From an uncultured Carboxylicivirga sp. (GTDB taxonomy: Bacteria > Bacteroidota > Bacteroidia > Bacteroidales > Marinilabiliaceae), in NCBI GenBank assembly GCA_947503525.1, contig CANNEA010000008.1, forward strand, positions 124,001 through 188,000: 64,000 nt of DNA, written 5' to 3'. A model generated the notes under the pieces. That model was given only the letters and a program-made list of their open reading frames with translations. It was not told the origin of the DNA and did no database searches. The position numbers and the translations under genes are program-made. Of the stretch, positions 3,910-63,899 are shown piece by piece. The first letter of the stretch is position 1, and every line of letters begins with the position of its first letter.

Positions 3910-5475
3910 ATGAGAAGTACCTGTTTATTAATTCTTGCAACATTCATTCTTCAAGCCTTTAGTATTTCTACTTCGGCAAAAGGAATAAAGGTAAAATCTG
4001 AAAATCCGAATATCATTTACATCCTGGCAGATGATCTTGGTTATGGAGATGTAAAATGTTTTAATCCTAAAGGAAAGATACCTACTCCCAATATGGATGA
4101 GATGGCCTCCAATGGTATCATGTTTACCGATGCGCATACGTCTTCAGCAGTTTGCACACCAACCCGGTATGGAATATTAACCGGTCGGTATAATTGGCGA
4201 AGTTCGTTAAAGAGTTCTGTTTTAGGTGGATATTCCAAGTCCTTAATTAGGCAGGAGCGTATTACCATAGCCGAAATGCTAAAAGAACAAGGATACACCA
4301 CTGCCTTTATTGGCAAGTGGCACTTGGGGTGGGACTGGAAAATAAAAGAGGGAGCAAATAAACTTAATAACCTGGATAAAGTTCAGGATGTCGATTATGC
4401 AGCGCCAATAAGTAATGGACCATCTTCTCATGGATTTGATTACTCATTTGGTTTTTGCGGATCATTGGACATGCCACCTTATGTATGGGTCGAAAATGAT
4501 AGACCAACTATGGAACCTACAAAAATAACAAGAAACATTGATGCAAAGGGATTTTGGCGCCGAGGTCCAACGGGAGAGGATTTTAATCATACTACAGTAC
4601 TTCAGGATGTTACGGATAAAGCAAAAGGGTATATTGAAGAGCAGGCTAAGCTTAAGCAACCTTTCTTTTTGTACCTTCCTTTACCAGCGCCTCATACACC
4701 CATTTTGCCAACTACCGAATTCATGGGAAAAAGCAATACGAATATGTATGGCGATTTTGTAATGCAGGTTGATGATGTGGTCCGTCAAATAAGGGAAACA
4801 TTAAAGCAACAAGGGATTTCTGAAAACACGCTGCTTGTATTTACCAGTGATAACGGCTGTTCGCCCAGAGCCGATTTTGAAGAATTGGCTAAGGTTAAGC
4901 ATTATCCAAGTTATAATTTAAGAGGTGCAAAAGCAGATATTTTTGAAGGAGGACACCGAGTGCCATTTATTGTGGAATGGCCGGCAAAAGCATTAAAAAA
5001 CTACAGTTCAAATAAAATCATTTGTACCACTGATTTCTTTGCTACTTGTGCTGATTTGACTGACTATAAAATTAAAGATACAGAAGCTGAAGATAGTTAT
5101 AGTATGTTGCCATTATTATTAGGTAAAGATGATACTCCCATTCGTGAGTATACTGTACATCATTCTATCAACGGTTCGTTTGCCATACGACAAGGTGATT
5201 GGAAGTTAAACATATGTCCCGGTTCTGCAGGATGGAGTTACCCAAAACCACACGAAATAAAAAAAGAAAAACTGGATTTACCTGCTATGCAGTTGTATAA
5301 CCTCAAAGAGGATATTGGGGAAACCAAAAACTTAATTGCTGAATACCCGGAAAAAGCATTACAATTGAAGACTGCTCTCAAAAAAATAATTCTTGATGGT
5401 AGAAGTACTCCTGGAAAAGTGCAAGAAAATGAAGGCATGGATGGTTGGAAGCAGATTCAACAGATAATTAATTAA
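3910..5475 (+). CDS. S1-family sulfatase (CTPTR)
   Basis: A 521-residue formylglycine-dependent sulfatase of the arylsulfatase fold that hydrolyses sulfate esters. The N-terminus is a type I signal peptide (ending near residue 23) rather than a lipobox, so it is probably soluble in the periplasm or exported. Metal ligands Asp41-Asp42 are in LADDLGYGD, the formylglycine Cys82 in CTPTR, the conserved Lys and His in GKWHLG, a SDNG metal motif follows, and a later GG-H-R-VPF segment matches the usual C-terminal active-site strand. It opens the array and is followed by the GH29 gene after 124 bp. The mid-region (PPYVWVENDRP) resembles S1 enzymes acting on hexose 6-sulfates, but subfamily needs a profile search. 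Confidence 0.93.
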   Translation: MRSTCLLILATFILQAFSISTSAKGIKVKSENPNIIYILADDLGYGDVKCFNPKGKIPTPNMDEMASNGIMFTDAHTSSAVCTPTRYGILTGRYNWRSSLKSSVLGGYSKSLIRQERITIAEMLKEQGYTTAFIGKWHLGWDWKIKEGANKLNNLDKVQDVDYAAPISNGPSSHGFDYSFGFCGSLDMPPYVWVENDRPTMEPTKITRNIDAKGFWRRGPTGEDFNHTTVLQDVTDKAKGYIEEQAKLKQPFFLYLPLPAPHTPILPTTEFMGKSNTNMYGDFVMQVDDVVRQIRETLKQQGISENTLLVFTSDNGCSPRADFEELAKVKHYPSYNLRGAKADIFEGGHRVPFIVEWPAKALKNYSSNKIICTTDFFATCADLTDYKIKDTEAEDSYSMLPLLLGKDDTPIREYTVHHSINGSFAIRQGDWKLNICPGSAGWSYPKPHEIKKEKLDLPAMQLYNLKEDIGETKNLIAEYPEKALQLKTALKKIILDGRSTPGKVQENEGMDGWKQIQQIIN

Positions 5476-5599
5476 ATTTAAAAACGATCACTCTTACAAT
5501 ACACTTTACTGTGATTGAGGTATCTTATGGAAATCTAAAATATAGCTTTTGTTATAGATGTTCATATGGTTTAACTAGCAACAAGTGAATTTATTTGAT

Positions 5600-7204
5600 A
5601 TGACTACAGGTAAATTATATAGTATTTTGATTAGTATCATTATCATACTAACTTCAAGTAAATGTTCAGATCAACAAAAGACGGAAACCAAACCTTTGTA
5701 TGACGGCACCTGGGAGGACTTGCAAGAAATGCCTGTGCCGGATTGGTTCAATGACGGTAAAATTGGCATTTTCATCCATTGGGGACCTTATAGTGTAATC
5801 GGACACCGAAAAGGGGGCAGAGGTTATGCTGAACATGTACCTAAAATGATCTACGAAGATCCAAATTATTATTACCCATACCTTGAAGAACGTTGGGGAG
5901 CAGCTCCTCCTGAATTCGGTTATAAAGATATTATTCCTGAATTTAAGGCTGAAAATTGGAACCCTGATGAATGGGCTGAATTATTCTCCGAAGTAGGCGC
6001 AAAATATGTAGTTTTTACAGCAGAACATCATGATGGATGGGCCAATTGGGCCTCTGATCTTACCCCTTGGAATGCTTTAGACATGGGGCCTAAGCGTGAC
6101 TTAGTTGGCGACTTGGGTAAAGCTGTTCGTGCCAAAGGTTTAAAATACGCTCCATCTTATCATCGTGAAAGACATACAAGTTTTTTTACTACAAAAAAGT
6201 ATGTGGTTAATGCTACTGCACGTCCGGATATTCTTGAAGAAATAAAACGCGCTCCGAAGGCTGAGTTATTATATGGTCCATTTGGATTCAGCAGTGAAGC
6301 AGTGGATGAGTATGTAGCGCGTTGGAAAGAAATTCAGGATAAGTATCAACCAGATATGTTGTGGATGGATGATTTTCCAATATACACGCGAGATGGTAAC
6401 AATGTACGTAAAGGTATTGCAAAGCCAGTGATCAAATATTTTGATGATCAATTGCGAAAAATGATTACGGAATATATGAATGATGGAGCGGCACGCGGGC
6501 AAACTGTTTATTGCAATAACAAAGGAGGAAATAGGAATTGGCCAGATGGAGTTGGCTGTTTGGAAAAAGATAATTTGAAATTAAAATCAATTGGACCCAA
6601 ATGGCAAAGTTGTACGACTTTTGGAACTTCTTTTGGTTATTTGGAAGGAGATACTTACAAAAGCATTGAAGGTGTTATTCATGAAATGGTTGAAGTGATC
6701 AGCCGAAATGGTAATTTCTTGATTAATATTGGACCCAAAGCAGATGGCACCATTGTTCCTGAGCAAGTTGAGCGGCTACAAGCAATGGGTGATTGGTTAA
6801 AGGTAAATGGAAAAGCCATTTATGGTTCTCGCTATTGGAAAGTAAATCAGCAACAAAACGAAAGTCTATCATTTACGACCAATGGAAACAAACTATATGC
6901 AATTAAGTGTACTCAACCACAAACTTCGTTCTTGGTTGAAGCTACTGCAGGATGGAGTAGTGATTACGTCAAATCCATTAGTCTTCTTGGTTCCAAGGCG
7001 AAGGTTGTATGGGAATTGACCCCTGAGGGATTGAAAATTACTCCGCCCAAAGACCTGGGAGAAAGTAAATATGCCTGGTCTTTTGAAATTGTTACAAAGG
7101 AAGAACAATACCATCCTAAAGCCATACAAGATGATGCTAGCAAAGCTCTAAAAGGAACAAAGAAGGTGGATTTAGATGGAAATGTTAATACTAAGAATAA
7201 ATAA
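5600..7204 (+). CDS. GH29 alpha-L-fucosidase (or alpha-L-galactosidase)
   Basis: About 534 residues from ATG 5600; an in-frame GTG at 5585 would add five residues, but the ATG starts the hydrophobic leader directly. A weak lipobox (TSSKC, Cys22) follows the leader. The (beta/alpha)8 catalytic domain spans about 40-385 with hallmark segments GIFIHWGPYS, TAEHHDGWANW and GDLGKAVRAKGLKY. The likely nucleophile is Asp257 in LWMDD. Residues 390-490 form the usual C-terminal beta-sandwich, and a lysine-rich tail of about 40 residues ends the protein. GH29 enzymes release terminal alpha-L-fucose with retention; some from algal loci act on alpha-L-galactose. It lies 12 bp upstream of a sulfatase, which suggests it works on desulfated fucosyl or L-galactosyl ends. 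Confidence 0.92.
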   Translation: MTTGKLYSILISIIIILTSSKCSDQQKTETKPLYDGTWEDLQEMPVPDWFNDGKIGIFIHWGPYSVIGHRKGGRGYAEHVPKMIYEDPNYYYPYLEERWGAAPPEFGYKDIIPEFKAENWNPDEWAELFSEVGAKYVVFTAEHHDGWANWASDLTPWNALDMGPKRDLVGDLGKAVRAKGLKYAPSYHRERHTSFFTTKKYVVNATARPDILEEIKRAPKAELLYGPFGFSSEAVDEYVARWKEIQDKYQPDMLWMDDFPIYTRDGNNVRKGIAKPVIKYFDDQLRKMITEYMNDGAARGQTVYCNNKGGNRNWPDGVGCLEKDNLKLKSIGPKWQSCTTFGTSFGYLEGDTYKSIEGVIHEMVEVISRNGNFLINIGPKADGTIVPEQVERLQAMGDWLKVNGKAIYGSRYWKVNQQQNESLSFTTNGNKLYAIKCTQPQTSFLVEATAGWSSDYVKSISLLGSKAKVVWELTPEGLKITPPKDLGESKYAWSFEIVTKEEQYHPKAIQDDASKALKGTKKVDLDGNVNTKNK

Positions 7205-7216
7205 TAGAATCGTCTT

Positions 7217-8623
7217 ATGCGGATTGTAAAATCAATATTGTTTGTTAGTATATATCTTATCTCTTTAAGTGCATGTACTAGTCATGGATCAGAGTTTAAT
7301 AAGCCGAATATTATATTTATTGTGGTTGACGATTTAGGTTATTCAGATGTTGCTTATATGCATCAACAAGCACTGATTCAAACTCCAAATATTGATAGCT
7401 TGGCCATGGGAGGAATGGTATTTACGGATGCTTACGCAGCAGCTCCTGTATGTTCTCCTACACGCGCAAGCTTGATGACTGGAAAATATCCGGCAACGTT
7501 AAAATTGACTTGTCATATACCGGGAATGGGTATGGAAAAGTATTTGAAGAAGCTCAGCAAAGGCAAAAAGTTAAAGGAAGCCTACTTTTTGGATCACTTA
7601 CCCACTACTGAAATAACATTTGCTGAAGTATTAAAAAAGGAAGGATATGCTACGGGATATATTGGTAAATGGCACTTGGGAGGCGAAGGTTCTATTTATA
7701 CAAAAGATGGAATTGTAAATGCTGATTATCATCCAGAAAAGCAGGGATTCGATCTCAATATCGGAGGTTGCTCTTATGGCCAGCCAAAAAGTTATTTCGA
7801 TCCGTATAAAAACGGCACTATTCAAGATAGAAAAGAAGGAGAATATCTTACTGATAGACTTGGCGATGAGGCTGTGTCATTTATTGAGCAAAATAGGCAA
7901 AATCCTTTCTTTCTTAATCTTGCTACCTATACCGTTCACACCCCTTTAAGGGCTCCGGAAGAAACAATTACTAAATACAATGGCAACAAATACTTTGCTA
8001 TGATTGAGAAGCTGGATGAGAATGTGGGAAAGGTAATGGCTAAGCTTAAAGAATTGGAGTTACTGGAAAATACAATTGTTGTCTTCTATTCCGATAATGG
8101 TGGATTATGGGGTAATGCACCTTTAAAAGGCAAAAAGGGAACATTACACGAAGGAGGGATTCGAGTACCAATGATTGTTAACTGTCCCGATAGAATAAAA
8201 CCAGGTAGTAAATGTGAGGTTCCTGTTACATCTGTTGATTTCTTTCCAACCTTTTTAGAATTGGCTGGTGTGTCACCCGCAGATTATCCTGAAGTAGAAG
8301 GGGAGAGTTTATTGCCTTTATTAAAAGAGAAAAATGGCTTTCCTGAGAGGGCAATTTATTGGCATTTCCCTCATCATCGTAAAGAAGGACTTTCAATGGG
8401 CGCAGCAATTCGTGAAGGGGAGTGGAAATTAATTAAGGAATTTGAAACAGAAAACATATACCTCTATAATTTAAAAGACGATTTGGGTGAGGAAAACAAC
8501 TTAGTTTCTCAATATCCGGATAAAAAGGTCGAACTTCTAAATAAGCTTGAAAATTGGCAACAAGAAGTGGACGCAGAAATGCCAGAATTAAACGAAAACT
8601 ATAAACAACTAATAACAAAATAA
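7217..8623 (+). CDS. S1-family sulfatase (CSPTR), S1_16-like
   Basis: A 468-residue lipoprotein (SLSAC, Cys20) with complete sulfatase hallmarks: Asp38-Asp39 in VVDDLGYSD, formylglycine Cys79 in CSPTR, GKWHLGG, a YSDNGG metal motif and LHEGGIRVPM. The stretch after the active site (MTGKYPATLKLTCHIPG) resembles S1_16 enzymes, several of which remove 4-O-sulfate from galactose or N-acetylgalactosamine; this is pattern recognition, not a profile result. It sits 12 bp after the GH29 gene and 11 bp before the GH97 gene, so it may unmask galactosyl residues for that enzyme. Confidence 0.93.
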   Translation: MRIVKSILFVSIYLISLSACTSHGSEFNKPNIIFIVVDDLGYSDVAYMHQQALIQTPNIDSLAMGGMVFTDAYAAAPVCSPTRASLMTGKYPATLKLTCHIPGMGMEKYLKKLSKGKKLKEAYFLDHLPTTEITFAEVLKKEGYATGYIGKWHLGGEGSIYTKDGIVNADYHPEKQGFDLNIGGCSYGQPKSYFDPYKNGTIQDRKEGEYLTDRLGDEAVSFIEQNRQNPFFLNLATYTVHTPLRAPEETITKYNGNKYFAMIEKLDENVGKVMAKLKELELLENTIVVFYSDNGGLWGNAPLKGKKGTLHEGGIRVPMIVNCPDRIKPGSKCEVPVTSVDFFPTFLELAGVSPADYPEVEGESLLPLLKEKNGFPERAIYWHFPHHRKEGLSMGAAIREGEWKLIKEFETENIYLYNLKDDLGEENNLVSQYPDKKVELLNKLENWQQEVDAEMPELNENYKQLITK

Positions 8624-8634
8624 AGGAAGCTATT

Positions 8635-10545
8635 ATGATTCAGAAATTCCTGACTATTATATTTATTATTTCTAGTCTTTGGTCCTGCACTAAGCCCTTA
8701 GATCAATTTAATTTAAGTTCACCTCAAGGTAATGTTTCTTTAAAGATTGAGCTTATAGATAATAAACTGAACTATCAAGTAAGTCAAGAGGGGACAAGCA
8801 TGATTGGTGTTTCTGAATTGGAAATATTATGCAATGCCAAAGTAACTATTGTTGATGCTTTAGAGATAGAACAAGATACAATCTGGAGGCCTGTTTGGGG
8901 ACAACAGAGTATAGTACACGACAATTATAAAGAATTACAACTAGATATTGACATAGAAGGAGTAAAAGGAAAACTCCTCGCTAGAGTTTATAATGAAGGT
9001 GTAGCTTTTCGTTTTATCCTCAACGAAGGTGAAAAGCCAAGCGAAACCATCTTCAAGTGTGAATATGCTTTACCTGAACAGGGCAATTTTTATTTTACAA
9101 AAGGTGAAACGGCACCTATTGGACCAATTAGTTTTAAGGAAGTAGGAGAATTTCTGGAACAGGATAAAAATAAGAAGAAAATCAGTCTTCCTTTGCTTGT
9201 TGAGTTGAATGATCAGCCCTTTATTGCTCTTTTGGAATCAGATTTATTTGCTTCAAAAGGTATAGAGTCGATGCAGTTGATTAATTCTGATATGGATGGA
9301 AAGATGGTGTCACTTAACAAAGTTAAATTAAGCAAAGAAAAGTGGACCAGTCCATGGAGGGTTATATTATTTGGCGATAAGGCAGGTGACTTGGTAATGA
9401 ATACTGTTCCTATTAATTTGGCAACGCCATGTAAGATAGAAGACACAGATTGGATAAAGCCGGGGAAGACTTTATGGGATTGGCGTGTTCATGGGTATAC
9501 TGCTCCTGATGGATTTACCTATGGCATTGATAACGAAAGCTATTATCGTTTTATCGATTTTGCAGCAGAAACAGGAATTGAGTATTTCCTTATTGACGAT
9601 GCCTGGTACAAACATGTTACAAAAGGTCATTTTGAATTATCGGATAAGCTAGATCTTGACAAGGTGATTGCTTATGCAGCTGATAAAGAAGTTGATTTAA
9701 TTCTCTATTATGATAGAAGACATGGTGAATATGGTGATGAAGAACTCTTTCCATATTACCAGTCATTAGGAATGAAAGGCATCAAATATGGTTTTATGGG
9801 CAATAAGCCTGACTTTACGAGGGAAGCCATTCAAAAAAGTGCGACCAGTAAGCTACTTATTGATTTCCATGATGGGCCTGTTCCTTTTACAGGTATGCGT
9901 CGCACCTACCCCAACGCCATTACCCGTGAATATTGCCATGCGCAACAAGATTCTCGTCGGGCCTTTACTCCTGAAACATTTATTAATATGGCATTGATAA
10001 ATGCGATAACAGGCCCTCTGGATATGAATAACGGTAATTTTGATTTGATCGGAATTAATGCCGGCCTAAGGCAAAAGGGACCACGTAAACCTAATTCCTA
10101 TTTATCAACAGTAGCATCAGAGGCAGCTCGAACACTGATTATTTTCAGTGGTTTGGTTTGTATACCTGATGCACCTGAAGCTTATGCTGCCAAAGCTGAT
10201 TTATTCGAGTTTATACAAAAGATGCCAGTTGGTAAATGGGATGAAAGCCGAATTCTTCATTCTAAATTAGGTGAATACATTTCTACTGCAAGGCGACATG
10301 ATAAAGAATGGTTTATTGGAAGTGTATACAACCAAAAAGGTGGAACCTTAGGCATTGAGCTTGATTTTCTGGAGGAAGGTCAAGAATATGAGGTCACGTA
10401 TTATGAGGATACAGAAGACACTCATTGTAAAAGTAATCCTGAAGCTTATCAGGTTAAAAATGGAAGTGTAAGAAAAGGAGACATAGTCAATGCTGTCATG
10501 GCTCCCGGAGGAGGCCATTGTATGTGGATAAGACCTAAAAATTAG
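8635..10545 (+). CDS. GH97 glycosidase, retaining (alpha-galactosidase-like) type
   Basis: A 636-residue lipoprotein (SLWSC, Cys18) with the GH97 architecture: N-terminal beta-super-sandwich (about 25-280), (beta/alpha)8 barrel (290-545) and C-terminal beta-domain (550-636). Diagnostic segments are the WDWRVHG strand, EYFLIDDAWY and TGMRRTYPNAITREY. GH97 contains inverting alpha-glucosidases of the SusB type and retaining alpha-galactosidases. Here the strand LLIDFHD carries Asp410, the position used as nucleophile in the retaining branch; SusB-type enzymes instead carry a catalytic Glu on this strand. This favours an alpha-galactosidase or beta-L-arabinopyranosidase activity. It is followed by a GH36-like gene, another alpha-galactosidase-type family. 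Confidence 0.88.
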   Translation: MIQKFLTIIFIISSLWSCTKPLDQFNLSSPQGNVSLKIELIDNKLNYQVSQEGTSMIGVSELEILCNAKVTIVDALEIEQDTIWRPVWGQQSIVHDNYKELQLDIDIEGVKGKLLARVYNEGVAFRFILNEGEKPSETIFKCEYALPEQGNFYFTKGETAPIGPISFKEVGEFLEQDKNKKKISLPLLVELNDQPFIALLESDLFASKGIESMQLINSDMDGKMVSLNKVKLSKEKWTSPWRVILFGDKAGDLVMNTVPINLATPCKIEDTDWIKPGKTLWDWRVHGYTAPDGFTYGIDNESYYRFIDFAAETGIEYFLIDDAWYKHVTKGHFELSDKLDLDKVIAYAADKEVDLILYYDRRHGEYGDEELFPYYQSLGMKGIKYGFMGNKPDFTREAIQKSATSKLLIDFHDGPVPFTGMRRTYPNAITREYCHAQQDSRRAFTPETFINMALINAITGPLDMNNGNFDLIGINAGLRQKGPRKPNSYLSTVASEAARTLIIFSGLVCIPDAPEAYAAKADLFEFIQKMPVGKWDESRILHSKLGEYISTARRHDKEWFIGSVYNQKGGTLGIELDFLEEGQEYEVTYYEDTEDTHCKSNPEAYQVKNGSVRKGDIVNAVMAPGGGHCMWIRPKN

Positions 10546-10587
10546 GTCTGGACTTAATGGTGAATAAACAATCTAATTGATAAATCT

Positions 10588-12690
10588 ATGTCTTATTTAA
10601 GAAAAGAAATCTACATCGTACTCTTATTGATCACTCTATACGCTTGCAATATTAATGAACCAAACAAAAATAACTACGAATTAAATCATATTCCTCAATC
10701 AATTGCATTAGAGCAAGTGTCAACCAAAGGAATCTTTGTATTAAATCAGCAAGAACTTGCTCCCGATTCCAACGGAATTATTGCCGAAATAAAATTGGAA
10801 CTACCTCAATTTGCAAAAGGAATATATTATCGTCCTTTTTCAGCAAAATTAGCGGCAGGTAACCGTGTTGAACCCTTGTGGTTCAGTCAAATTTCAGAGC
10901 TTGGTGCTTATGAAAGAAAGAAGCCAAGGATGGATGACAATACAAGCCTGGGCGCTTTTATGATGCTCAAAAAAGATAATGGTCAATATTTGGCGCTATT
11001 ACCACTCGTTTCAAATCGTGTTGGAAATACCTTTAGTATTCGCGACAATAATATTCACTTAACAGTTGCCACTTATGGAACAAGAACCGAAGATGTTGCA
11101 GTTCCTTTATTAAGCTATGCCCAATCTGAAAATCCTTACGAAGCGGCCAGGATGGTTTGGGAACAGGCCATACAAATAGATGAGATTAAAGGAAATATAA
11201 ATTGGCGCGAAAACAAAATCTACCCAGAGCCATATAAATATTTGGGCTGGTGCTCGTGGGAGCATTACAAGAAAAATATTAATGAAGAAAATATGTTGGA
11301 TGCGATTAAAGAAATGAAATCCAGCGAAATTCCCTTCAGGTGGGCACTTATCGATGATGGTTATTTAGATGCGAAGAAAAGCCAATTGCTATCGTTTGGG
11401 CTAGATAAAAAGAAATTTCCCAATGGCTGGGAACCTATCATCAGCCAAAAAGATGAAAAAATTAAGTGGATGGGTGTTTGGTGCAATTTTAATGGATACT
11501 GGTCGGGTATTTCTCCTGAACATACCATGTCGAATTTGAGCGATTACTTGACTTTGCGTAACAAAAATGCCAAGGGAGAAAAGTACATGCCAATAATTTC
11601 ATCTGAGGCAGCCAATGCTTTTTATAATGAAATGACTGCCACTATGAAAGGTAATGGATTTGATATGATTAAGGTTGATTTTCAGTCGGATAACTTTCGA
11701 TATAATACGGGATCTAAGAATGCTATTCTTGGGGTTCATTATAACAACACGGCTTTAGAAGAAAACTGTAAGGCTAAGGGGTTGCACCTTTTAAACTGTA
11801 TTGCTCAACAAAATTTTAATGTTTTCAATCATCGTTACAGTGCTTTAATCCGCGGAAGCATCGATTATAAAACCACGAAAGACAGACTAGACCTTACTTT
11901 GGTGCAAAATTTCACCAACGCTTTTTGGTTGGGGCATACCCATTGGCTCGATCAAGACATGTTCTTTGCCAATCATGCGGCATCAGCTCGTTTAATGGCC
12001 GTGTCAAGGGCTATTTCTGGAGGTCCAATTTACTTGTCGGATGATCCACAAAATATCGACGATGCTGTTTTAAAACCTTTAACATACAAGGATGGGCGTA
12101 TTTTAGGCACTCTGGCACCTGGTGTTCCTTTGCCCGAGAGTATGATGCAGGATCCATTCTTTGAAGGAAAAGCATTCAGGGTAATTGCTCCGCTTGAAAA
12201 TAATAGTGCCGTAATAATGGCAGTAAATTTAAGTCAAAACAATAATGATGTAAGCACCTCCATTTCCATAAAAGATTATCCTTTTGCCGCAGCAATGATG
12301 CAACCTTATGAGGGACTTTGGAATATTCCTAAAGAGGGAATTTTAATTTATGATCATTATGCAGGTACGGCTAGTATACTTAATAACGAACATCACTTTA
12401 AATTGGAGTCGAGAAAAGAACGGCTTTTTCAGCTAAGTCCTATTCAACAGGGTTGGTCTGTAATAGGCAGAGCTGATAAATACCTGTCGGCAGCAACGTT
12501 TAAAATGCTTGAAATCGATGCCGATTCCATTAAGATCAAACTGTTAGAAGACGGCCCAATAATGTTGTGGACTGAAAACAAAGAACCATTTTCAGATAAT
12601 TTTGAATTCTCCAAACTAGAGAATGGTTTATGGCGTGGAGAGTTAAGCAATTCAAATAAGAATAAAGAATATACAATCGTTCGTAAATAA
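10588..12690 (+). CDS. GH36-like alpha-galactosidase (raffinose-synthase/Sip1 branch)
   Basis: A 700-residue lipoprotein (TLYAC, Cys20). The barrel has the three signatures of the raffinose synthase/seed-imbibition branch of GH36: GWCSWEHY (about 224), ALIDDGY (about 255) and MIKVDFQSD, where Asp364 matches the nucleophile position. An N-terminal beta-sandwich (about 40-200) and a C-terminal beta-domain (about 560-700) complete the fold. Family members hydrolyse or transfer alpha-galactosyl groups; prokaryotic members of this branch are poorly characterised. It lies between GH97 and GH95 genes with gaps of 42 and 9 bp, in a run of exo-acting enzymes for galactose and fucose or L-galactose. 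Confidence 0.82.
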   Translation: MSYLRKEIYIVLLLITLYACNINEPNKNNYELNHIPQSIALEQVSTKGIFVLNQQELAPDSNGIIAEIKLELPQFAKGIYYRPFSAKLAAGNRVEPLWFSQISELGAYERKKPRMDDNTSLGAFMMLKKDNGQYLALLPLVSNRVGNTFSIRDNNIHLTVATYGTRTEDVAVPLLSYAQSENPYEAARMVWEQAIQIDEIKGNINWRENKIYPEPYKYLGWCSWEHYKKNINEENMLDAIKEMKSSEIPFRWALIDDGYLDAKKSQLLSFGLDKKKFPNGWEPIISQKDEKIKWMGVWCNFNGYWSGISPEHTMSNLSDYLTLRNKNAKGEKYMPIISSEAANAFYNEMTATMKGNGFDMIKVDFQSDNFRYNTGSKNAILGVHYNNTALEENCKAKGLHLLNCIAQQNFNVFNHRYSALIRGSIDYKTTKDRLDLTLVQNFTNAFWLGHTHWLDQDMFFANHAASARLMAVSRAISGGPIYLSDDPQNIDDAVLKPLTYKDGRILGTLAPGVPLPESMMQDPFFEGKAFRVIAPLENNSAVIMAVNLSQNNNDVSTSISIKDYPFAAAMMQPYEGLWNIPKEGILIYDHYAGTASILNNEHHFKLESRKERLFQLSPIQQGWSVIGRADKYLSAATFKMLEIDADSIKIKLLEDGPIMLWTENKEPFSDNFEFSKLENGLWRGELSNSNKNKEYTIVRK

Positions 12691-12699
12691 AAAACAATC

Positions 12700-15021: not shown

Positions 15022-15030
15022 TTAAATAAT

Positions 15031-16443: not shown

Positions 16444-16452
16444 TAAAATATT

Positions 16453-18207: not shown

Positions 18208-18248
18208 ATTATATTTTTAGAGTTTAATAATTGAAACTTAATTAGCGT

Positions 18249-26172: not shown

Positions 26173-26177
26173 TTTTG

Positions 26178-41166: not shown

Positions 41167-41187
41167 CAATTATTAAAAGTACAATTG

Positions 41188-42708: not shown

Positions 42709-42754
42709 CTTAAAAAGGTAAACCTGAACTAGGAATTGAATTAAATCCTTGTGG

Positions 42755-56650: not shown

Positions 56651-58258
56651 ATGAAAACTAAAATCCAATTTTTGCTAGTGAGTATTCTAGCCGTTATAGC
56701 CTCCTGTACTTCACCAGATGAAGTTAGTGTTGCCACACTCCTTAGAGAAATGGTTGATCGTGATGCTGTAACTAACTTTCCGCAAGCTGATTTTCGCTTA
56801 AAACAATCGAGCAGTTACAACCGAGCTTCGGTAAGTCCTGAAGATAGTGTGGGTTGGTTTACCAATCATGATTTTAACTCAAATGATAAAGACCAAAATT
56901 TTATCCGTATAGAAGAGAATAATGGAAAGAAAGAATGGGTGCTGATGGATCACGAAGGCCCAGGAGCTATTGTACGCACTTGGATGCCACTGAAAAATGC
57001 GAAAAAGCCAGGAACAGATATTATCATCAAATTTTATCTGGATGGAGATACAGTACCTGCGCTTGAAGGTAATATGTTGGGGCTATTGGATGGCACTGAT
57101 TTGTTCCCTTTCCCTTTAGCACATAAGTCCTTGCGTTCTGCGGTATCATTCTTTCCTATCCCTTATGCTAGAAGCTGTAAGGTGACTGTGACAAAGCGTC
57201 CCTTCTTCTTTATCTTTACCTATAGAGAATATGCCGAAGGCACAGCGGTGAAAACTTTCACAATGGAAGATTATAACAAGGCCCAACCACAGATAGAACA
57301 AGTGTGTGAAGACTTATTGAATTCAGAAAAGGCAGTAGAAGGCAATGTGCTTAAGCTCAATGAAACTCTAGTTACGAACGAAGAAAAAGCCATTGTTTTG
57401 CCACAAGGCACAGCTGCTGTGCGTGAGCTTTCGTTAAAGCTAGCTGACTATACGGATTCATTGCTTATGCGCTCGGTAATTCTTAAGATGGAATGCGATG
57501 GGAAGCCTACCATTTGGTGTCCTATTGGCGAGTTCTTTGGTTCGGGTATTGGTCTCAATCCTTATCAGGGTTGGTACCGCACGGTGGCCGAAGATGGTAC
57601 TTTGTCTTGCCGCTGGGTAATGCCTTATCAGGAATCGGCTAAGGTGTCTGTGCTTAATCTGGGTGTTGAAAGCATTGATATTGAGTTGAAAGCCATTGTT
57701 GGAGATTATATATGGACGGAGAATAGTATGTATTTTAATGCTGCCTGGCGAGGAGAAAACCCTGTACCTACGCGTCCGTTTTCGGATTGGAATTATGTTA
57801 CTCTGAAAGGTCGTGGTGTATATGTGGGTGATGCCTTAACGGTTTACAACCCGGTGAAGAAATGGTGGGGCGAAGGTGATGAAAAAATATGGGTCGATGG
57901 CGAAGATTTTCCATCTCTATTTGGTACCGGAACAGAGGACTATTATGGCTACTCTTGGGGTGGTATGAGCAACGACTTTTACGAGCACCCGTTCCACGCT
58001 CAGCCACGTAGTAATGTCTACAATAAACTCAATAGAAAAAAGGAGAAATTTGTAAGAAACACCCAAGGTTATAGCACCGAAACCCGAACTCGCTCTTTAG
58101 ATGGTATGCCTTTCGGTACTTCGCTGCAGCTGGATATGGAAGTATGGAGCTGGACCGATTGTGATATGGCTTATGGCGTAGGAGCGTATTGGTATGGTGA
58201 TGCTGCTACCACTTCTAACCGAGTACCTGACCCACAAGGGGTGTTAAGGGCACATTAA
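56651..58258 (+). CDS. GH172-like (DUF2961) glycosidase
   Basis: A 535-residue lipoprotein (VIASC, Cys19) of the DUF2961 family, now classed as GH172, whose known members include a difructose-anhydride synthase/hydrolase and D-arabinofuranosidases. Recognisable segments: a DHEGPGAIVRTWM strand (residues about 98-110), FFGSGIGLNPYQ, YFNAAWRGENP and GTGTEDYYGYSWGGM. The family fold is a double beta-jelly roll that oligomerises. The Glu residues in GTGTED and upstream strands are candidate catalytic groups. A fucose- or pentofuranose-type target in an algal polysaccharide is possible but not shown. It sits 9 bp after the S1_15-like sulfatase. Confidence 0.83.
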   Translation: MKTKIQFLLVSILAVIASCTSPDEVSVATLLREMVDRDAVTNFPQADFRLKQSSSYNRASVSPEDSVGWFTNHDFNSNDKDQNFIRIEENNGKKEWVLMDHEGPGAIVRTWMPLKNAKKPGTDIIIKFYLDGDTVPALEGNMLGLLDGTDLFPFPLAHKSLRSAVSFFPIPYARSCKVTVTKRPFFFIFTYREYAEGTAVKTFTMEDYNKAQPQIEQVCEDLLNSEKAVEGNVLKLNETLVTNEEKAIVLPQGTAAVRELSLKLADYTDSLLMRSVILKMECDGKPTIWCPIGEFFGSGIGLNPYQGWYRTVAEDGTLSCRWVMPYQESAKVSVLNLGVESIDIELKAIVGDYIWTENSMYFNAAWRGENPVPTRPFSDWNYVTLKGRGVYVGDALTVYNPVKKWWGEGDEKIWVDGEDFPSLFGTGTEDYYGYSWGGMSNDFYEHPFHAQPRSNVYNKLNRKKEKFVRNTQGYSTETRTRSLDGMPFGTSLQLDMEVWSWTDCDMAYGVGAYWYGDAATTSNRVPDPQGVLRAH

Positions 58259-58344: not shown

Positions 58345-59745
58345 ATGAGAATACGTATAAAAAAACGACATCTGTTTACACTATTGCTGGCAACATTATG
58401 TATCCAGCTATGCTTTGCTCAAAACACAAAGCCCAACTTTGTGATTCTTCTTGGGGATGATATTTCGGCCAGCAGCCTCGGTTGTTACGGTTCTGAAAAT
58501 CCTCATACGAGCCCGAATATTGATCGCTTGGCTGAGGAAGGATTGCGATTTACCAATATGTTTGTGGCAGAAGCAATGTGTGCTACGACTCGTGCAGAAC
58601 TATACACAGGATTGATGCCATATAGAAATGGCTGCACAATTAACCATGCTGCTACTAAGAAAGGAACCTTAAGCATAGTGCAACATCTTGAAAAATTGGG
58701 CTATAGGGTGGGACTTACTGGGAAACGCCATTTCAGGCCTCAATCAGTTTATCCGTTCGAGTTTATCAAAGGTTTTCCGCAAAACTGCAACTATAGCGGT
58801 ACGGCCCCAGAAAGTTGGGATGGTGTTGAAGAATTTATGACCCGTGATAGTCAACAGCCTTTTTGTTTGATTATCTGCTCTATTCATGCACATTCTCCAT
58901 GGAATGCTGGAGATGCCAGCCTATGGTCTTTGGATGAATTAAAGTTGCCTAAGAATTTGGTGGATAATAAAGTTACTCGTGAGTATTATAGAGAGCATTT
59001 AGCTGAAATTCGCCTGTTTGATGAACAGGTGGGAAAAGCCCAAAAGTTGATTGAAGCTAAAGGCTTAGACGAAAATACAGCGCTTATTGTATTGGATGAA
59101 AATGGGGCAGGAATGCCTGGTGGAAAATGGACAACATACGATTGGGGTGTGCGCTCTGCCTGTGTAATGAAATGGCCGAAATCTAAGCAAGGCTCAACAA
59201 CTGCTGCCATAGCTCAATATTGTGATGTGTTACCGACGTTGATTGATGCGGCTGGTGGTGAAGTGCCAAAAGATATGGATGGCAAAAGCCTTTTGCCTGT
59301 AATAAAAGGAAAAACTGAAGATCATCGTGATCATGCTTTCTTTTTGTACAATAGCGGTAAGGAAGGCCCTGAATTTGCTAGCCGTGCCGTGACTGATGGC
59401 CGCTATAAATTGATATGGACTTTAACACCCGAAAACTTATATGCTGTGCGTACCATTAATGGTTTTGATTACGGACATACTGATAAGATGGAAGATCGTC
59501 ATGTAAGGAAACTCTATTTATCATGGTTGGCATATGCCGGTTATGATAAAACAGCCACCGAATTGGTCTGGCGCTATAGAAAGCGTCCGGAATTTCAACT
59601 GTTTGATTTGGATGTTGATCCTGAAGAAATGACTAATTTGGCTGAAGTTGAACTGTATGCTTCTAAAATTAGTGAACTTACAGCTCTGATCGAAAACTGG
59701 ATGCTAGATCAAAATGATAAATCAAGAAAACCCTCTACTTTTTAG
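58345..59745 (+). CDS. Atypical S1-family sulfatase-like protein (CATTR motif)
   Basis: A 466-residue protein with a type I leader (LCFAQ). The alkaline-phosphatase-type fold is clear: Asp38-Asp39 in LLGDDISASS, a GKWTTYDWGVR strand, and a C-terminal LFDLDVDPEEMTNLA segment. The active site is unusual: Cys79-Ala-Thr-Thr-Arg83 has Thr where CxPxR requires Pro (or Ala); the SDNG metal motif is DENG (Asp251, Glu252, Asn253), placing Glu at the usual Asp ligand; and GKWH is GKRH (Lys127, His129 kept). It could be a sulfatase with unusual maturation, or a non-sulfatase member of the superfamily. The next gene begins one base after its stop. Confidence 0.85.
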   Translation: MRIRIKKRHLFTLLLATLCIQLCFAQNTKPNFVILLGDDISASSLGCYGSENPHTSPNIDRLAEEGLRFTNMFVAEAMCATTRAELYTGLMPYRNGCTINHAATKKGTLSIVQHLEKLGYRVGLTGKRHFRPQSVYPFEFIKGFPQNCNYSGTAPESWDGVEEFMTRDSQQPFCLIICSIHAHSPWNAGDASLWSLDELKLPKNLVDNKVTREYYREHLAEIRLFDEQVGKAQKLIEAKGLDENTALIVLDENGAGMPGGKWTTYDWGVRSACVMKWPKSKQGSTTAAIAQYCDVLPTLIDAAGGEVPKDMDGKSLLPVIKGKTEDHRDHAFFLYNSGKEGPEFASRAVTDGRYKLIWTLTPENLYAVRTINGFDYGHTDKMEDRHVRKLYLSWLAYAGYDKTATELVWRYRKRPEFQLFDLDVDPEEMTNLAEVELYASKISELTALIENWMLDQNDKSRKPSTF

Positions 59746-59746
59746 T

Positions 59747-61267
59747 ATGCTAGTTGTGAATTATAAAAAAAAACAAATTAAAAATCTAGTCTTTTTATTA
59801 ATAGGCTTTTTTGCTCTAAGTTCTTGTCAGAAAGAGATAAAGGTGCAGCAACCTAATATCATCTTTATTATGGCCGATGATTTGGGTTGGCAGGATGTTG
59901 GTTTTATGGGAAGTCAATGGTTCGAAACACCTAATTTGGATGCTTTGGCTGAGGAAAGTAAAGTCTTCACCGATGCATACATGTATCCTACTTGTTCACC
60001 TTCCAGGACTGCTTTGCTTACCGGGCGTCAATCGTTTCGCACAGGAGTGTATAATGTTCCTGTATTGGAGCGAGGGAATAGCCAAACAAATATTTTTTCG
60101 CGTTGGACAGTTGGAGCGGAACACCCTGTTTATGCTGAACCATTGAATGAAATTGGCTATAAGCTTATTCACTTGGGAAAATGGCACATTGTAGGACCTA
60201 GTCCTGAAAAAGAAATTGTATATCCTTTTGAGACAAAACTCAATCAGCACCCCAACGGTGATTTGTCTTGGCTAAAAAAACATCAGGAAGAATATCAACA
60301 ATACTACCCCGTTGGGCGCGGTTTTCACGAAAATGTAGGTGGCTCATGGTGGGGCGACCCTGCTCGTGGCTATAGGGATGGCTATAAGTCAGAAAGTGGT
60401 GGCTACAAAGCGCCCTTCAAAAACCCTTTTATAGAAGACAAAGAAAATGACGAGTGGTTAACGGATCGTCTAACGGATGATGCTATTGATTTTATGCGAC
60501 ACAACAAGAATGAATCCTTCTTCGTAAATTTACATTATTATGCGCCACATCGACCTACTGTACCTAGAGATATGGAGAATTATCAGAGGTTTTTAGAAAA
60601 AACACCGGATAGCATAACTGGGCAAGGCACTAAAAGGCTGGAAGAAATAGCCGGCTATGCAACCATGATTACTTCAATTGATCAGAATGTTCAACGCATA
60701 ATCGATTATTTGGATGAGGAGGGCTTGCGAGAAAATACTATCGTAGTATTTACTTCGGACAATGGCTTTAACGGCTTACAAAGTAGTACTAATGCCTTGC
60801 GTGGAGCCAAAGGCTCAGTATATGAAGGCGGCATACGAGTGCCTGCTTTTGTCAATTGGAAAGGCAGGATAGAGACCGGTATTTCGCATGTTCCAATCTC
60901 TGGAATGGATTATTTTCCAACATTTTTAGAGCTTGCAGGTGTTACGGATTATGAAGAAGTACTCGATGGTCAAAGCTTGCTACCATTGTGGACGGGTGAA
61001 GAAGAAATGGAACGTCCATTATTTTGGCACTTGGCTAGTGCATACAAAAATCCACCGTGCTCTATTATTCGCAAAGGGAAATGGAAACTGATTCAATTCT
61101 TAAATAGTGGAAAGCTTGAGCTCTATAATCTTGAAGAGGACTTAAAAGAGAGTAAAAATTTAGCAGAACAAGAAACACAAACAAGTCAAGCCTTATTAAC
61201 AGAATTACTTGCTTGGCGCAAAGAAAACAATGTGCCTTTGCCACCGGCTTCGGTGTTGGAGTACTAA
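59747..61267 (+). CDS. S1-family sulfatase (CSPSR)
   Basis: About 506 residues from ATG 59747, chosen because it begins directly after the preceding stop and runs straight into the lipoprotein leader (ALSSC, Cys27); an upstream ATG at 59714 would overlap the previous gene by 32 bp. Hallmarks: Asp44-Asp45 in MADDLGWQD, formylglycine Cys83 in CSPSR, GKWHIV, FTSDNGF and YEGGIRVPA. The central insert (WWGDPARGYRDGYKS) and the FVNLHYYAPHRP strand set it apart from the other sulfatases of the array. It is followed after 6 bp by the propeller-type gene. Confidence 0.92.
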   Translation: MLVVNYKKKQIKNLVFLLIGFFALSSCQKEIKVQQPNIIFIMADDLGWQDVGFMGSQWFETPNLDALAEESKVFTDAYMYPTCSPSRTALLTGRQSFRTGVYNVPVLERGNSQTNIFSRWTVGAEHPVYAEPLNEIGYKLIHLGKWHIVGPSPEKEIVYPFETKLNQHPNGDLSWLKKHQEEYQQYYPVGRGFHENVGGSWWGDPARGYRDGYKSESGGYKAPFKNPFIEDKENDEWLTDRLTDDAIDFMRHNKNESFFVNLHYYAPHRPTVPRDMENYQRFLEKTPDSITGQGTKRLEEIAGYATMITSIDQNVQRIIDYLDEEGLRENTIVVFTSDNGFNGLQSSTNALRGAKGSVYEGGIRVPAFVNWKGRIETGISHVPISGMDYFPTFLELAGVTDYEEVLDGQSLLPLWTGEEEMERPLFWHLASAYKNPPCSIIRKGKWKLIQFLNSGKLELYNLEEDLKESKNLAEQETQTSQALLTELLAWRKENNVPLPPASVLEY

Positions 61268-61273: not shown

Positions 61274-62857
61274 ATGAAAATGAATATTATTATGAAGATC
61301 ACTAAAACAGTTTTACTGGGGCTAATGGCTGGAGTTATAGCAGCTTGTTCGTCATCTACTCAGGAAACTACTTGGAGTATTGATAATCAGTCGGATTGGC
61401 GGAATAATGTAACTGAGAAATCAAATATTAAAATTATTGATGGGAAAATTACACCAACAACAAATGAGGCTACCTATCTTAGTTCGATAAAAAAATACAA
61501 AACCAAGCGTACATTAAAGTCCATCACTCTTTCGCAATCCCCTGAATGGATGAACTGGAATCCCATAAATAATGTAGGTCCTTCTAACCTTGGTGATGCT
61601 CCGGTAGCCTTACAAATGGGCATCGGTAACTATTGGATGTTTGGGCGATATAATGGAGAGGATAGATGGAAGGGTTTTGAGAGTGAGACTGTCGCGTTAC
61701 AAGGCTTTCAAGAGGATCTGTGGACAACACCTTTCAAAAATCAATTCAATGCTTCTGGTGGATTAAAGCCAAGTAAAGGAGGCTACCATGCATGGCAAAG
61801 TAAGGATATGGTCACCTGGGTACATTACGGACCCGTATCTGAATATTTTTCTCGTTGGATGACAACAGCGGAGATGGTGGATGATAAAGTTTATCTCTAT
61901 TATGATTTCCCTAACGATCAGGATCCACATCTTTATATTGATGAGGATTTGACTGATGGCGAACCGGGAAAGAATATGGGAATGGCATTCAAAGATCCTT
62001 CGCACGGTTCGGATTGTGCAGTGATTCGCGATCTGGAAGGCCAGTTTCATATTATTGCCGAAGATTGGTCACCCATCAATGCTTCTACCCACGCCTGGGA
62101 TTCGCCATTGGCAACGCGTGCCGTAAGTCCTGATGGTTTTAATGATTTTGAAATACAAGCCCCACCAGTTGATGAGCGTACAGAGCCTACAGGCGAGTTC
62201 GCAGAGTATGTACATCCCCATTGGCACAAAGAAGACCCTAAAAACTACCCTGGAAAAACGGCTACCGAAGATGTGCCTCAGCACCGAGTGAAAGCTGGTG
62301 AAACGCGTGCTTACGGGAGATATGAAATACACACACCGGAGCAAAATGCTTTTGGTGATTGGTCTTCCATTGCCATTGGCGAACAGTATTATCTTTTTGC
62401 AGATTACGACCCAGCAGGCAAACATGGCCGACAAAATATGAGTGTTGCCTGGTTTACCTCTGATGATATTAATAAGCAGTTTACCTTTTGTGGAAATATT
62501 GGACAAGGGCATCCCGATCCTGATGTGATGTTTGCAGAAGGTCAGTTTTATCTTCTAACCCAAACTAAATATGACTATATAAGTGATGGACCATGGGTAG
62601 AAACAGTTGAAGTACGGGTTGGTGTAGATACTTCGAATGATGGGGCGATTGATCAATGGGGCAACTGGCAAGTAGTTAAAGAGCAATATGATTATGTAGA
62701 AGGTTTTGCCAAGCAAGTGGAAAGAATTCCTGCCCAAATAGATCTATCTGAATTACCGGAAGCTTATGGTTTTCAGTTTGAAATTAAAATGATTGATGAA
62801 ACAGATAATGATTCGAAGCCAATTATTGATAAGGTTCAAATAGCCTTTAACGATTAG
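61274..62857 (+). CDS. Beta-propeller glycosidase-like lipoprotein of unassigned family
   Basis: A 527-residue lipoprotein (VIAAC, near Cys21). Repeated strand-turn blocks look like a five-bladed propeller of the GH32/43/117 kind: YHAWQSKDMVTWVHYGPV, RWMTTAEMVDDKVYLYYDF, GSDCAVIRDLEGQFHIIAEDW, FGDWSSIAIGEQYYLFADYD and HPDPDVMFAEGQFYLLTQ. Conserved-looking acidic residues in these blocks (for example TTAEM, GSDC, DPDV) are candidates for catalysis. The length exceeds a bare propeller, with extra N-terminal (about 22-100) and C-terminal (about 460-527) regions. I do not recognise an established family. It is 25 bp upstream of the GH117-like gene and may act with it. Confidence 0.6.
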   Translation: MKMNIIMKITKTVLLGLMAGVIAACSSSTQETTWSIDNQSDWRNNVTEKSNIKIIDGKITPTTNEATYLSSIKKYKTKRTLKSITLSQSPEWMNWNPINNVGPSNLGDAPVALQMGIGNYWMFGRYNGEDRWKGFESETVALQGFQEDLWTTPFKNQFNASGGLKPSKGGYHAWQSKDMVTWVHYGPVSEYFSRWMTTAEMVDDKVYLYYDFPNDQDPHLYIDEDLTDGEPGKNMGMAFKDPSHGSDCAVIRDLEGQFHIIAEDWSPINASTHAWDSPLATRAVSPDGFNDFEIQAPPVDERTEPTGEFAEYVHPHWHKEDPKNYPGKTATEDVPQHRVKAGETRAYGRYEIHTPEQNAFGDWSSIAIGEQYYLFADYDPAGKHGRQNMSVAWFTSDDINKQFTFCGNIGQGHPDPDVMFAEGQFYLLTQTKYDYISDGPWVETVEVRVGVDTSNDGAIDQWGNWQVVKEQYDYVEGFAKQVERIPAQIDLSELPEAYGFQFEIKMIDETDNDSKPIIDKVQIAFND

Positions 62858-62882
62858 AAATTATTAAAAACTATATACAAAA

Positions 62883-63899
62883 ATGGGAAACAAGTATTTC
62901 TTAAGTATTGCAATTGTGTTATTATTTTCAATACACATTAGCTCTTGTGGTTTAAAAAAAGGAGCAACTGAAGGTGATGTATCTACGGAAAATGATACAA
63001 TTGAATTTACCTATTCTGAAGCGAAAGGAATAGGTATTGATTCTTTATATAATCGTCGTGATCCAAGTGATATCATCAAAGTTGGCGACACCTATTATAT
63101 CTGGTATACTCGAATGATTAGTCCTCAGCGATCGGGCTATTGGGGAGATATTTGGTATGCTACTTCAAGCGATGAAGGACATACCTGGAATGAACAGGGT
63201 TTAGCCTTGGCTGTTGGCGAAAAAGGGGCTTTTGATAGCCACTCAGTATTTACACCTAATATACTCACTTACGAAGGGAAGTATTATATGTATTACACGG
63301 CTGTACAACCAACACCGGGAAATACTATGGGTAAGTTTGAAAATAATAGTGTAAATGATTTTACGGCGATAGGATTAGCCGTTGCTGATCAACCTGAAGG
63401 ACCATTTGTTAGAGTAAAAAACAATCCGATTTTAGAAATTTCACCTGACTCTGTCGATTTCGATAGTTATCGGATTGACGATGCGGCCATGTTGGTTAAA
63501 GATAATCAGATATGGATGTACTATAAGGGACGTTCAAAGGTACATGGTAAAAAGGGTGCGCATTTTACTCAAATGGGGGTAGCTTTTGCAGCACAACCAG
63601 AAGGTCCATTTAAGAAGCATCCAGAACCTTTAATTGAAAAAGGACATGAGGTGTTAATTTGGCAAGAAAAAGGTGGTGTATCTTCATTAGCATCAATTAG
63701 TCAGGCCATACATTTTGCCAAGGATGGTGTTAATTTCTCTGTGAAGCAAGAAAACCTTACAGATATTCCTAAAGCTCCGGGTTTATATCGCCCACATCTA
63801 GAAAATGGTAATCAGGCGAAGGAAATTCCTGGTTGGGGGATTTCTATGATTCAAAAAAAGGGTCTAGCTTACCTTTTAAGGTATGAAATAAGAAAATAA
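62883..63899 (+). CDS. GH117-like five-bladed beta-propeller lipoprotein
   Basis: A 338-residue lipoprotein (HISSC, Cys22), paralogous to 20665-21654. It shows Asp60 in RRDPSDIIKVGDTYYIWYTR, SVFTPNIL, Asp199/Asp200 in DSYRIDDAAM and His255-Glu256 in GHEVLIWQ, matching the GH117 catalytic pattern (two Asp, His-Glu pair). It is closer to classical GH117 than the first copy in carrying the AFDSHSVFTP segment. GH117 enzymes release 3,6-anhydro-L-galactose from agar oligosaccharides, but divergent members occur in fucoidan loci. It is the last gene of the array, followed after 32 bp by the terminator. Confidence 0.78.
   Translation: MGNKYFLSIAIVLLFSIHISSCGLKKGATEGDVSTENDTIEFTYSEAKGIGIDSLYNRRDPSDIIKVGDTYYIWYTRMISPQRSGYWGDIWYATSSDEGHTWNEQGLALAVGEKGAFDSHSVFTPNILTYEGKYYMYYTAVQPTPGNTMGKFENNSVNDFTAIGLAVADQPEGPFVRVKNNPILEISPDSVDFDSYRIDDAAMLVKDNQIWMYYKGRSKVHGKKGAHFTQMGVAFAAQPEGPFKKHPEPLIEKGHEVLIWQEKGGVSSLASISQAIHFAKDGVNFSVKQENLTDIPKAPGLYRPHLENGNQAKEIPGWGISMIQKKGLAYLLRYEIRK

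Follow-up and report, generated by a model that had tools for sequence, protein, structure and literature searches.

The persistence of fucoidan, which is degraded slowly, stores ocean carbon (PMC12786026 and PMC12872454). Wenyingzhuangia fucanilytica and other marine bacteria have clusters for fucoidan degradation in which GH29, GH95 and GH141 genes accompany S1 sulfatases, and the set named for fucoidan degraders in PMC12786026 takes in these three families together with S1_15 and S1_16. Further systems for comparison are sulfatase-rich Pontiella (PMC6388578) and the contexts of GH29 genes in Verrucomicrobiota (PMC8857213). In the carrageenan regulon of Zobellia galactanivorans (PMC5698469), the main locus lacks a SusCD pair and is presumed to depend on a distal one.

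We analyzed a 64,000-nucleotide stretch (the window) of a contig (C8) from an uncultured Carboxylicivirga sp., in which positions 3910-63899 hold a block of sulfatase and glycosidase genes, named below by their first nucleotide. Like the fucoidan clusters, the block has GH29, GH95 and GH141 genes beside S1 sulfatases, but it differs from them in having 16 sulfatases among 35 genes, all in one direction and with two hairpins around them. It shares with the Zobellia regulon the grouping of sulfatases and glycosidases without a SusCD pair of its own, with dau-like genes on the same contig, and departs from it in its GH29, GH95 and GH141 types and in the absence of a GH127-type Pfam match among the 35 genes. 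As in a canonical polysaccharide utilization locus (PUL) of the Bacteroidota, exported CAZymes and sulfatases are co-located and SusCD pairs and a hybrid two-component (HTCS) gene lie on the same contig; unlike such a locus, the 60-kb block itself contains neither SusCD nor a regulator. The block is an unusually large example of an already known kind of gene cluster, and two of its genes add new details, 61274, which belongs to a rare, predicted propeller family of the GH43 clan, and the gene of a GH141-like enzyme whose PDZ-like tail is conserved.

Layout, boundaries and surroundings of the block

The block consists of 35 plus-strand open reading frames (ORFs) of at least 150 aa, and the three minus-strand ORFs of that size lie inside or largely across plus-strand genes. 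The one-strand array with mostly short gaps and several overlaps described in the initial annotation was borne out, with 27 of 34 intergenic gaps under 60 bp (median, 16.5 bp), 4 overlaps, and five gaps of at least 99 bp (109, 99, 217, 288 and 132 bp). Since 51 of 91 same-strand gaps in the rest of the contig are also under 60 bp (median, 47 bp), this packing is tight but not unique. Mean gene GC is 39.9% in the block versus 38.0% in the other plus-strand genes of the contig, and no Rfam or tRNA matches were found in the 64-kb window.

Two perfect hairpins flank the block, one of 17 bp at 3597-3634, terminator-like in both orientations, and one of 19 bp at 63932-63972, between convergent genes. 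They are the sole perfect Watson-Crick stems of at least 9 bp (loop of 3 to 10) in the gaps of the window, in keeping with the earlier statement that no strong hairpin lies inside the block. The same annotation had called them two bounding perfect terminators; the perfect stems exist, but both T-tails are weak and a terminator scan covering 1-20000 and 24001-64000 picks up the 3597-3634 hairpin only. Counts from that scan were within about one standard deviation of shuffled sequence (18 versus 14.6, 10 versus 14.4 and 16 versus 13.5). A third perfect stem by the same definition lies in coding DNA of the window and has one GC pair.

Sigma-70 promoter scans were likewise near shuffled counts (58 versus 64.3, 62 versus 58.8 and 70 versus 57.2; standard deviation, 7.4). 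The Bacteroidetes TTTG...TAnnTTTG motif turned up twice, each time in coding DNA (expected, 1.8), and TAnnTTTG turned up once in gaps of at least 40 bp (expected, 0.8); because nothing rose above chance, the region upstream of 3910 included, the Bacteroidetes promoter scan is uninformative. One long transcript, or a small number of them, probably covers the block.

The one-strand run starts well before the first hairpin, because a GH2 beta-galactosidase-type gene (466-3591, plus strand), whose homologue adjoins the 3910 homologue in the congener G013, and 19 further ORFs precede it in the same direction. The run comprises 55 ORFs over 107 kb (C8 81-188 kb, back to C8:81334), and Pfam matches among the 35 block genes include no SusC/SusD pair and no regulator (HTCS, ECF-sigma or AraC), so a self-contained unit is not supported. 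On each side, about 29-30 kb separates the block from the nearest SusCD pair (C8:93211-97707 and from C8:216549 onward), and an HTCS gene is found at C8:210974. The sulfatase island to which the block belongs accounts, within 160 kb, for 30 of the 133 Sulfatase matches in the genome.

Enzyme content

By product, the 35 genes divide into 16 S1 sulfatases, 14 glycosidases (assigned or predicted), 3 esterases and 2 other proteins. The sulfatase count agrees with the earlier one, as 16 of the 35 proteins match Pfam Sulfatase PF00884 (E values, 5e-64 to 7e-31), and 15 of the 16 carry the C-x-P-x-R active-site motif, while the sulfatase-like protein at 58345-59745 has CATTR in that alignment column. 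The sulfatases are diverse, with pairwise identities of 21 to 56% (median, 30%), and in view of this median recent internal duplication was rejected as their sole origin. Two sets are likely paralogues, one of 3910-5475, 24562-26172 and 55073-56641 (36 to 55% identical; the first and second are 41% and 55% identical, respectively, to the S1_15-like third) and one of 15031-16443, 32051-33460 and 39748-41166 (42 to 55% identical). The number of sulfate positions addressed, proposed in the initial annotation to be large, need therefore not be as high as 16. The others lie at 7217-8623, 16453-18207 (up to 80% identical in Pontiellaceae), 27952-29391, 36028-37599, 42749-44296, 44585-46753 (closest solved structures named S1_8), 49379-50818, 50826-52262 and 59714-61267 (S1_16-like). 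Subfamily was called from the nearest named PDB chain for 6 of the 16 sulfatases, 3 of which had broad matches only, and on this basis S1_15-like and S1_16-like members were found, compared with the fucoidan-cluster list of S1_15, S1_16, S1_17, S1_22 and S1_25.

Where about 15 glycosidase-like genes had been proposed, we counted 14 with support from Pfam, PDB or a family profile. They encode a GH29 alpha-L-fucosidase-type enzyme (5585-7204), GH97 (8635-10545), a raffinose-synthase/GH36-type glycosidase (10588-12690), GH95 (12700-15021), a GH141-like beta-helix protein with a C-terminal PDZ domain (18249-20651), a GH141-type beta-helix protein (21754-24546), two GH116 enzymes (29464-32049 and 33486-36023, 58% identical), GH2 (46886-49345), a weak GH43-like protein below the Pfam cutoff (26845-27897), and two GH117-like glycosidases, at 20665-21654 (Pfam GH43) and 62883-63899 (anhydro-galactosidase family), that are 43% identical. 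The remaining two are a DUF2961 protein (56651-58258), which we take to be GH172-type, and the protein at 61274-62857, a distant, propeller-like member of the GH43 clan that we call X527. The esterases are two of GDSL type (26175-26855 and 37636-38292) and a SASA-type acetylesterase (41185-42708), and the other proteins are a DUF6786 protein (38510-39751) and an MG2-domain protein below the Pfam cutoff (52312-55089; GC, 34%) without a glycosidase match. CAZymes and sulfatases alike have export-type N termini, as judged by pattern and eye; a T9SS tail was seen in 0 of the 35 block proteins, versus five in the upstream proteins scanned. The best-matching papers of our literature search made no mention of a PDZ domain.

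The X527 family and related loci

Relatives of 61274 occur in Mariniflexile fucanivorans, Arenibacter, Maribacter, a Wenyingzhuangia sp., Pontiellaceae and Rhodopirellula. The view that this protein has no known relatives was rejected, since Pfam GH43 has matches in 31 of the 39 members of the family (E values of 0.01 or lower, with 3.2e-7 as the best); the member in the window is not among them. GH43-type propellers lead the fold search, with GH32 and GH62 also within the top 50, and because TM scores in that top 50 are low (0.19 to 0.35 on the query) and rmsd is high, we claim only the fold class. A paralogous relationship between 56651 and 61274 was also rejected, as the two gave no significant alignment; in G013 their homologues are fused.

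We surveyed the neighborhoods of 80 loci with a 61274 relative, using a 10-kb reach, at least 50% identity and 36 queries (the block genes and the GH2 gene at 466). For 23 of the 36 genes, a homologue was present in at least one locus, with GH29 (5585) represented in 19 of 80. An S1-like neighbor was found in 69 of the 80 loci and a fucosidase-type neighbor in 49; in the other 31, some on short contigs, no fucosidase-type neighbor was detected. Arenibacter, Pontiellaceae and Planctomycetota have clusters of homologues, about 55 to 80% identical, of several block genes; in M. fucanivorans two block genes only have homologues above 60% near the marker (64 to 66%). The congener G013 has a largely collinear mini-version of the block, in which the HTCS gene (75% over 1,363 aa) directly precedes GH2-S1. 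Growth of the block by insertion was considered and dropped, because the 59714-61274-62883 module recurs in other families, which makes loss in G013 as likely as insertion.

We tentatively propose, at somewhat less than even confidence, that X527 is an uncharacterized, strongly conserved family of propeller glycosidases distant from GH43 that is distributed over Bacteroidota, Verrucomicrobiota/Kiritimatiellae and Planctomycetota, in most cases with sulfatase genes and in many with fucosidase-type genes as neighbors, and that it might fill a missing exo-step of fucoidan breakdown with its DUF2961 partner.

Probable substrate and proposed pathway

The block likely encodes one half of a pathway for the breakdown of fucose-containing sulfated polysaccharides, the half in which exo-acting enzymes remove sulfate, acetyl groups and branches. 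Such a polysaccharide would be fucoidan or galactofucan, from brown algae or from diatoms. This reading is preferred because of the gene content, with GH29, GH95 and GH141 together, the export-type N termini, the lack of T9SS tails and SusCD among the 35 genes, and the clustering of homologues, some of it in fucoidan-degrading groups (two genes in M. fucanivorans, more in Pontiellaceae). The initial annotation had proposed a glycan with fucose or L-galactose plus galactose; the multisulfatase block and these homologue clusters are consistent with one such complex glycan, and we refine, but do not prove, the target as fucose-containing rather than red algal. Against a fucoidan target counts GH117, known for 3,6-anhydro-galactose from the names of PDB matches. 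The putative anhydrogalactose-type operon 48-60 kb downstream, the 31 loci lacking a detected fucosidase-type neighbor and the yield of two M. fucanivorans homologues were also counted on that side, as was the lack of an endo-fucanase family (GH107 or GH168) among the families assigned here.

The main rival, which we consider distinctly unlikely, is that the block degrades a red algal galactan (porphyran, agaran or carrageenan), in which alpha-L-galactose would be the target of GH29/GH95, anhydro-galactose that of GH117 and galactose that of GH2/GH36/GH97. The GH117 matches would fit, as would the downstream operon (C8:235832-247933; AraC, aldehyde dehydrogenase, RhaT-like symporter, enolase-superfamily, KDPG aldolase and PfkB genes), which resembles the dau gene set in the carrageenan regulon of Zobellia; that regulon itself includes one GH29 (PMC5698469). 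However, the 13 GH16 matches in the genome all lie on other contigs, no GH127-type Pfam match occurs among the 35 genes (PMC5698469 ties GH127/GH129 to carrageenan), and GH29 and GH141 genes are frequent neighbors of the closest homologues in brown algal or fucoidan-linked taxa.

Two other readings concern organization. That the block comprises several independent transcription units on one strand, perhaps for different glycans, is compatible with the fucose-containing target and somewhat unlikely; the five longer gaps and the occurrence of block genes elsewhere in small, differently ordered modules (such as 59714-61274-62883) speak for it, while the 27 short gaps, the 4 overlaps and the absence of a perfect stem of at least 9 bp in internal gaps speak against it. 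That mobile sulfatase and glycosidase genes built up here as an island, with no single substrate in common, is very improbable. In favor of such a buildup, strong DNA matches across 13 congeners concern one gene at a time, apart from those in G013 (among the matches listed, with at most 21 candidate places scored per genome), and individual proteins are up to 65 to 80% identical to proteins of other families and phyla, but the gene set around the 61274 marker recurs in distant genomes, GC in the block is close to that of its surroundings, and no mobile-element Pfam match occurs among the 35 genes.

For the fucose-containing target, we envisage that oligosaccharides produced outside the cell would be imported via the distal SusCD transporters and that sulfatases and esterases, in the periplasm or at the membrane, would expose sugars one by one. 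The GH29/GH95/GH141, GH36/GH97, GH2, GH116, GH117-like and GH43-clan enzymes could then release the exposed sugars, with fucose entering the fucose isomerase route (an L-fucose isomerase gene is present in the genome). Control of the block probably lies with a hybrid two-component sensor, for example the one encoded at C8:210974. Together with its short version in G013, the block provides an ordered parts list of exo-enzymes and sulfatases for matching sulfatase to sulfate, and it points to two uncharacterized enzyme types.

Gene content and limits of the block

ORF calling placed all 35 genes of the block (3910-63899) on the plus strand, and 16 of them contain a Pfam sulfatase domain. The 19 non-sulfatase genes comprise one each of GH29, GH97, GH36-type and GH95; two beta-helix GH141-type, two GH117-like and two GH116 genes; one weak GH43-like gene; single GH2 and DUF2961 genes; the GH43-clan protein 61274 (genes are named by their start in the window); two GDSL esterases and one SASA esterase; one DUF6786; and one MG2-domain protein. 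The gene counts in the initial annotation were correct or almost so. The MG2-domain protein (52312-55089) lies in mid-block, has low GC (34%) and no glycosidase match, and has distant, often merely partial homologues in 20 of 39 relatives. We also found that a GH141-like beta-helix protein (18249-20651) has a Pfam PDZ domain at its C terminus, which is, to our knowledge, unusual on a glycosidase. Alignments of the 12 collected homologues (best match at least 45% identity) cover this PDZ region in every case; the homologues come from Bacteroidota, Verrucomicrobiota/Kiritimatiellae, Planctomycetota and Pseudomonadota.

The block had been described as a single 60-kb array bounded by hairpins. Both hairpins are real, with perfect stems of 17 bp (3597-3634) and 19 bp (63932-63972), but the array is a portion of a larger island. 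The one-strand run extends upstream past the first hairpin, through a GH2 gene (466-3591) and then 19 more ORFs as far as C8:81334 (C8 is contig CANNEA010000008.1, of which the window is 124001-188000), and comprises 55 ORFs in total up to C8:187899. The gaps of the window contain no other perfect stem of at least 9 bp, and terminator-like counts were close to those of shuffles in a scan of positions 1-20000 and 24001-64000. The second hairpin separates the block from a convergent minus-strand gene from 63990 (L019:1990-5136; 1048 aa). This gene has no Pfam or PDB sequence match, and the mini-locus of the congener genome G013 contains a pair of its homologues, at 66% and 40%.

Besides SusC/SusD (C8:93211-97707), the upstream part of the run encodes a second GH29, an esterase, two sulfatases, T9SS-tailed proteins, and a chemoreceptor. 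The chemoreceptor, of the methyl-accepting type (L006:5412-7229; C8:109412-111229), lies between the T9SS proteins and the sulfatases and perhaps couples glycan sensing to movement. Three closely spaced giant ORFs of ~2550 aa each were also seen upstream (L015:4531-12201 and L016:5334-13049; C8:64531-89049); a scan of two of them identified subtilases that have Ig-like domains and a T9SS tail. Of the 133 Sulfatase matches in the genome, 30 fall in C8:113-273 kb, and two on a different contig belong to a single reading frame. The largest same-strand cluster in this 6.56-Mb, 39-contig genome is the one that spans the block (18 matches, spacing at most 15 kb); a cluster on contig C4 has 15. The block is real, correctly observed and large, and of a kind already known.

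Sulfatases, probable export and the marker protein

At the active site, 15 of the 16 sulfatases have C-x-P-x-R. The sulfatase-like protein at 58345-59745 has CATTR in this column instead, and its maturation or activity may differ. In a PDB-sequence search covering 6 of the 16, the nearest named structures suggest that 55073 belongs to S1_15, 59714 to S1_16, and 44585 to S1_8; the matches of 39748, 15031, and 16453 were too broad for S1 naming. Identity to 55073 is 41% for 3910 and 55% for 24562.

A T9SS tail (Pfam Por_Secre_tail, E ≤ 0.001) was found in none of the 35 proteins. A lipobox pattern occurs in 14 of the 35 N termini, that of 38510 at an implausible position; six pattern-negative proteins (8635, 10588, 15031, 24562, 32051, and 55073) have N termini judged lipoprotein-like by eye, and the others have signal-peptide-like stretches. 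These N termini, by pattern and by eye, fit a set of exo-enzymes that would be periplasmic or membrane anchored.

Searches of Pfam, NCBIfam, and PDB sequences gave no match for protein 61274 itself, but 31 of 39 members of its family weakly match Pfam GH43. Its structure model is confident (pLDDT 90.8), and Foldseek placed GH43-type propellers at the top, with GH32 and GH62 enzymes within the top 50 and low TM scores. We class it as a distant member of the GH43 clan and probably a glycosidase.

Relatives of the block in other genomes

Protein 61274 served as a specific marker. It is rare, occurring in 2 of the 295 other genomes sampled from the phylum, in 1 of 39 relatives, and in 1 of 13 congeners (G013). 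We confirmed 188 relatives in GTDB genomes and analyzed the best 80, which a coarse tally by record title assigned to Bacteroidota (24), Pontiellaceae/Kiritimatiellae (9), other Verrucomicrobiota (27), Lentisphaerota (2), Planctomycetota (17), and Pseudomonadota (1). Hosts include Mariniflexile fucanivorans, Arenibacter, Maribacter, Wenyingzhuangia sp., Winogradskyella, and Rhodopirellula, and some are freshwater-lake or other MAGs. Among these 80 loci, one of which is G013's own contig, an S1-like neighbor (best match to a C8 sulfatase, at least 25% identity) was found in 69 and a fucosidase-type neighbor (GH29, GH95, or GH141 type, at least 28% identity) in 49. For 23 of 36 genes (the block plus the GH2 at 466; best-hit method, blast E ≤ 1e-25), a homologue at least 50% identical lies within 10 kb of the 61274 relative in at least one locus. 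Arenibacter (two loci) has the densest set, with homologues of 5585, 15031, 39748, 50826, 55073, 59714, 61274, and 62883 in one stretch at 61-75% identity; M. fucanivorans has close homologues of 61274 (66%) and 21754 (64%) only. The order 59714-61274-62883 is partly recurrent: among the 74 loci where 61274 was called as a separate ORF, a 59714 homologue is directly upstream in 5 and a 62883 homologue directly downstream in 4.

In G013, contigs C653 and C14 are probably adjacent, since their ends overlap exactly by 57 bases. The end of C653 encodes an HTCS (75% to C8:210974), GH2 (72%), the S1 sulfatase 3910 (71%), an esterase-like ORF (32% to 41185), and GH29 (77%). C14 goes on with a short ORF, an S1 sulfatase (61% to the C8:119701 gene), and short pieces, one matching 39748, followed by 41185 (71%), 44585 (79%), and a single 1052-aa ORF (L024:6544-9702) that fuses 56651 (DUF2961; 72%) to 61274 (70%); in the window, two sulfatase genes lie between these. 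Farther on are homologues of 37636 (54%), 63990, and 67621. Window order is kept by the best-matching genes but not by the HTCS, the C8:119701-type sulfatase, or the 37636 homologue, and the G013 locus has additional ORFs. The two loci have a common skeleton, and the other block genes may have been gained in the window genome or lost in G013. In the other congeners, strong DNA matches to 5585-63899 (E ≤ 1e-30; at most 21 candidate places scored per genome) are to single genes only.

Proposed substrate and role

The substrate that we infer is a fucose-containing sulfated polysaccharide, which the block would desulfate and debranch by exo-action. A red-algal galactan is a possible target of the block or the adjacent island, because a putative 3,6-anhydrogalactose-type operon lies 48-60 kb downstream of the block, the block's GH117 matches carry anhydro-galactose names, and GH29 also occurs in the Zobellia carrageenan regulon as described in PMC5698469; however, C8 has no GH16, though the family is present elsewhere in the genome. 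The putative operon (L009:7832-19933; C8:235832-247933) encodes AraC, an aldehyde dehydrogenase, a RhaT-like symporter, an enolase-superfamily protein, GH2, a GH78-like protein, KDPG aldolase, and PfkB.

The HTCS C8:210974 is a likely regulator of the block, since its counterpart adjoins the mini-locus in G013. Oligosaccharides would probably enter through SusCD pairs elsewhere; by the account in PMC5698469, the Zobellia carrageenan locus is without SusCD and a distal pair is proposed, and we propose the same for the block. A fucose isomerase gene is present at C1:673386. In the scheme outlined in PMC12786026, exo-fucosidases and S1 sulfatases degrade oligosaccharides that have reached the periplasm. 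The same paper counts GH29, GH95, and GH141 among the families with known fucosidase activity and says that members of GH141 can be endo-fucanases as well. The block matches the periplasmic stage of this scheme.
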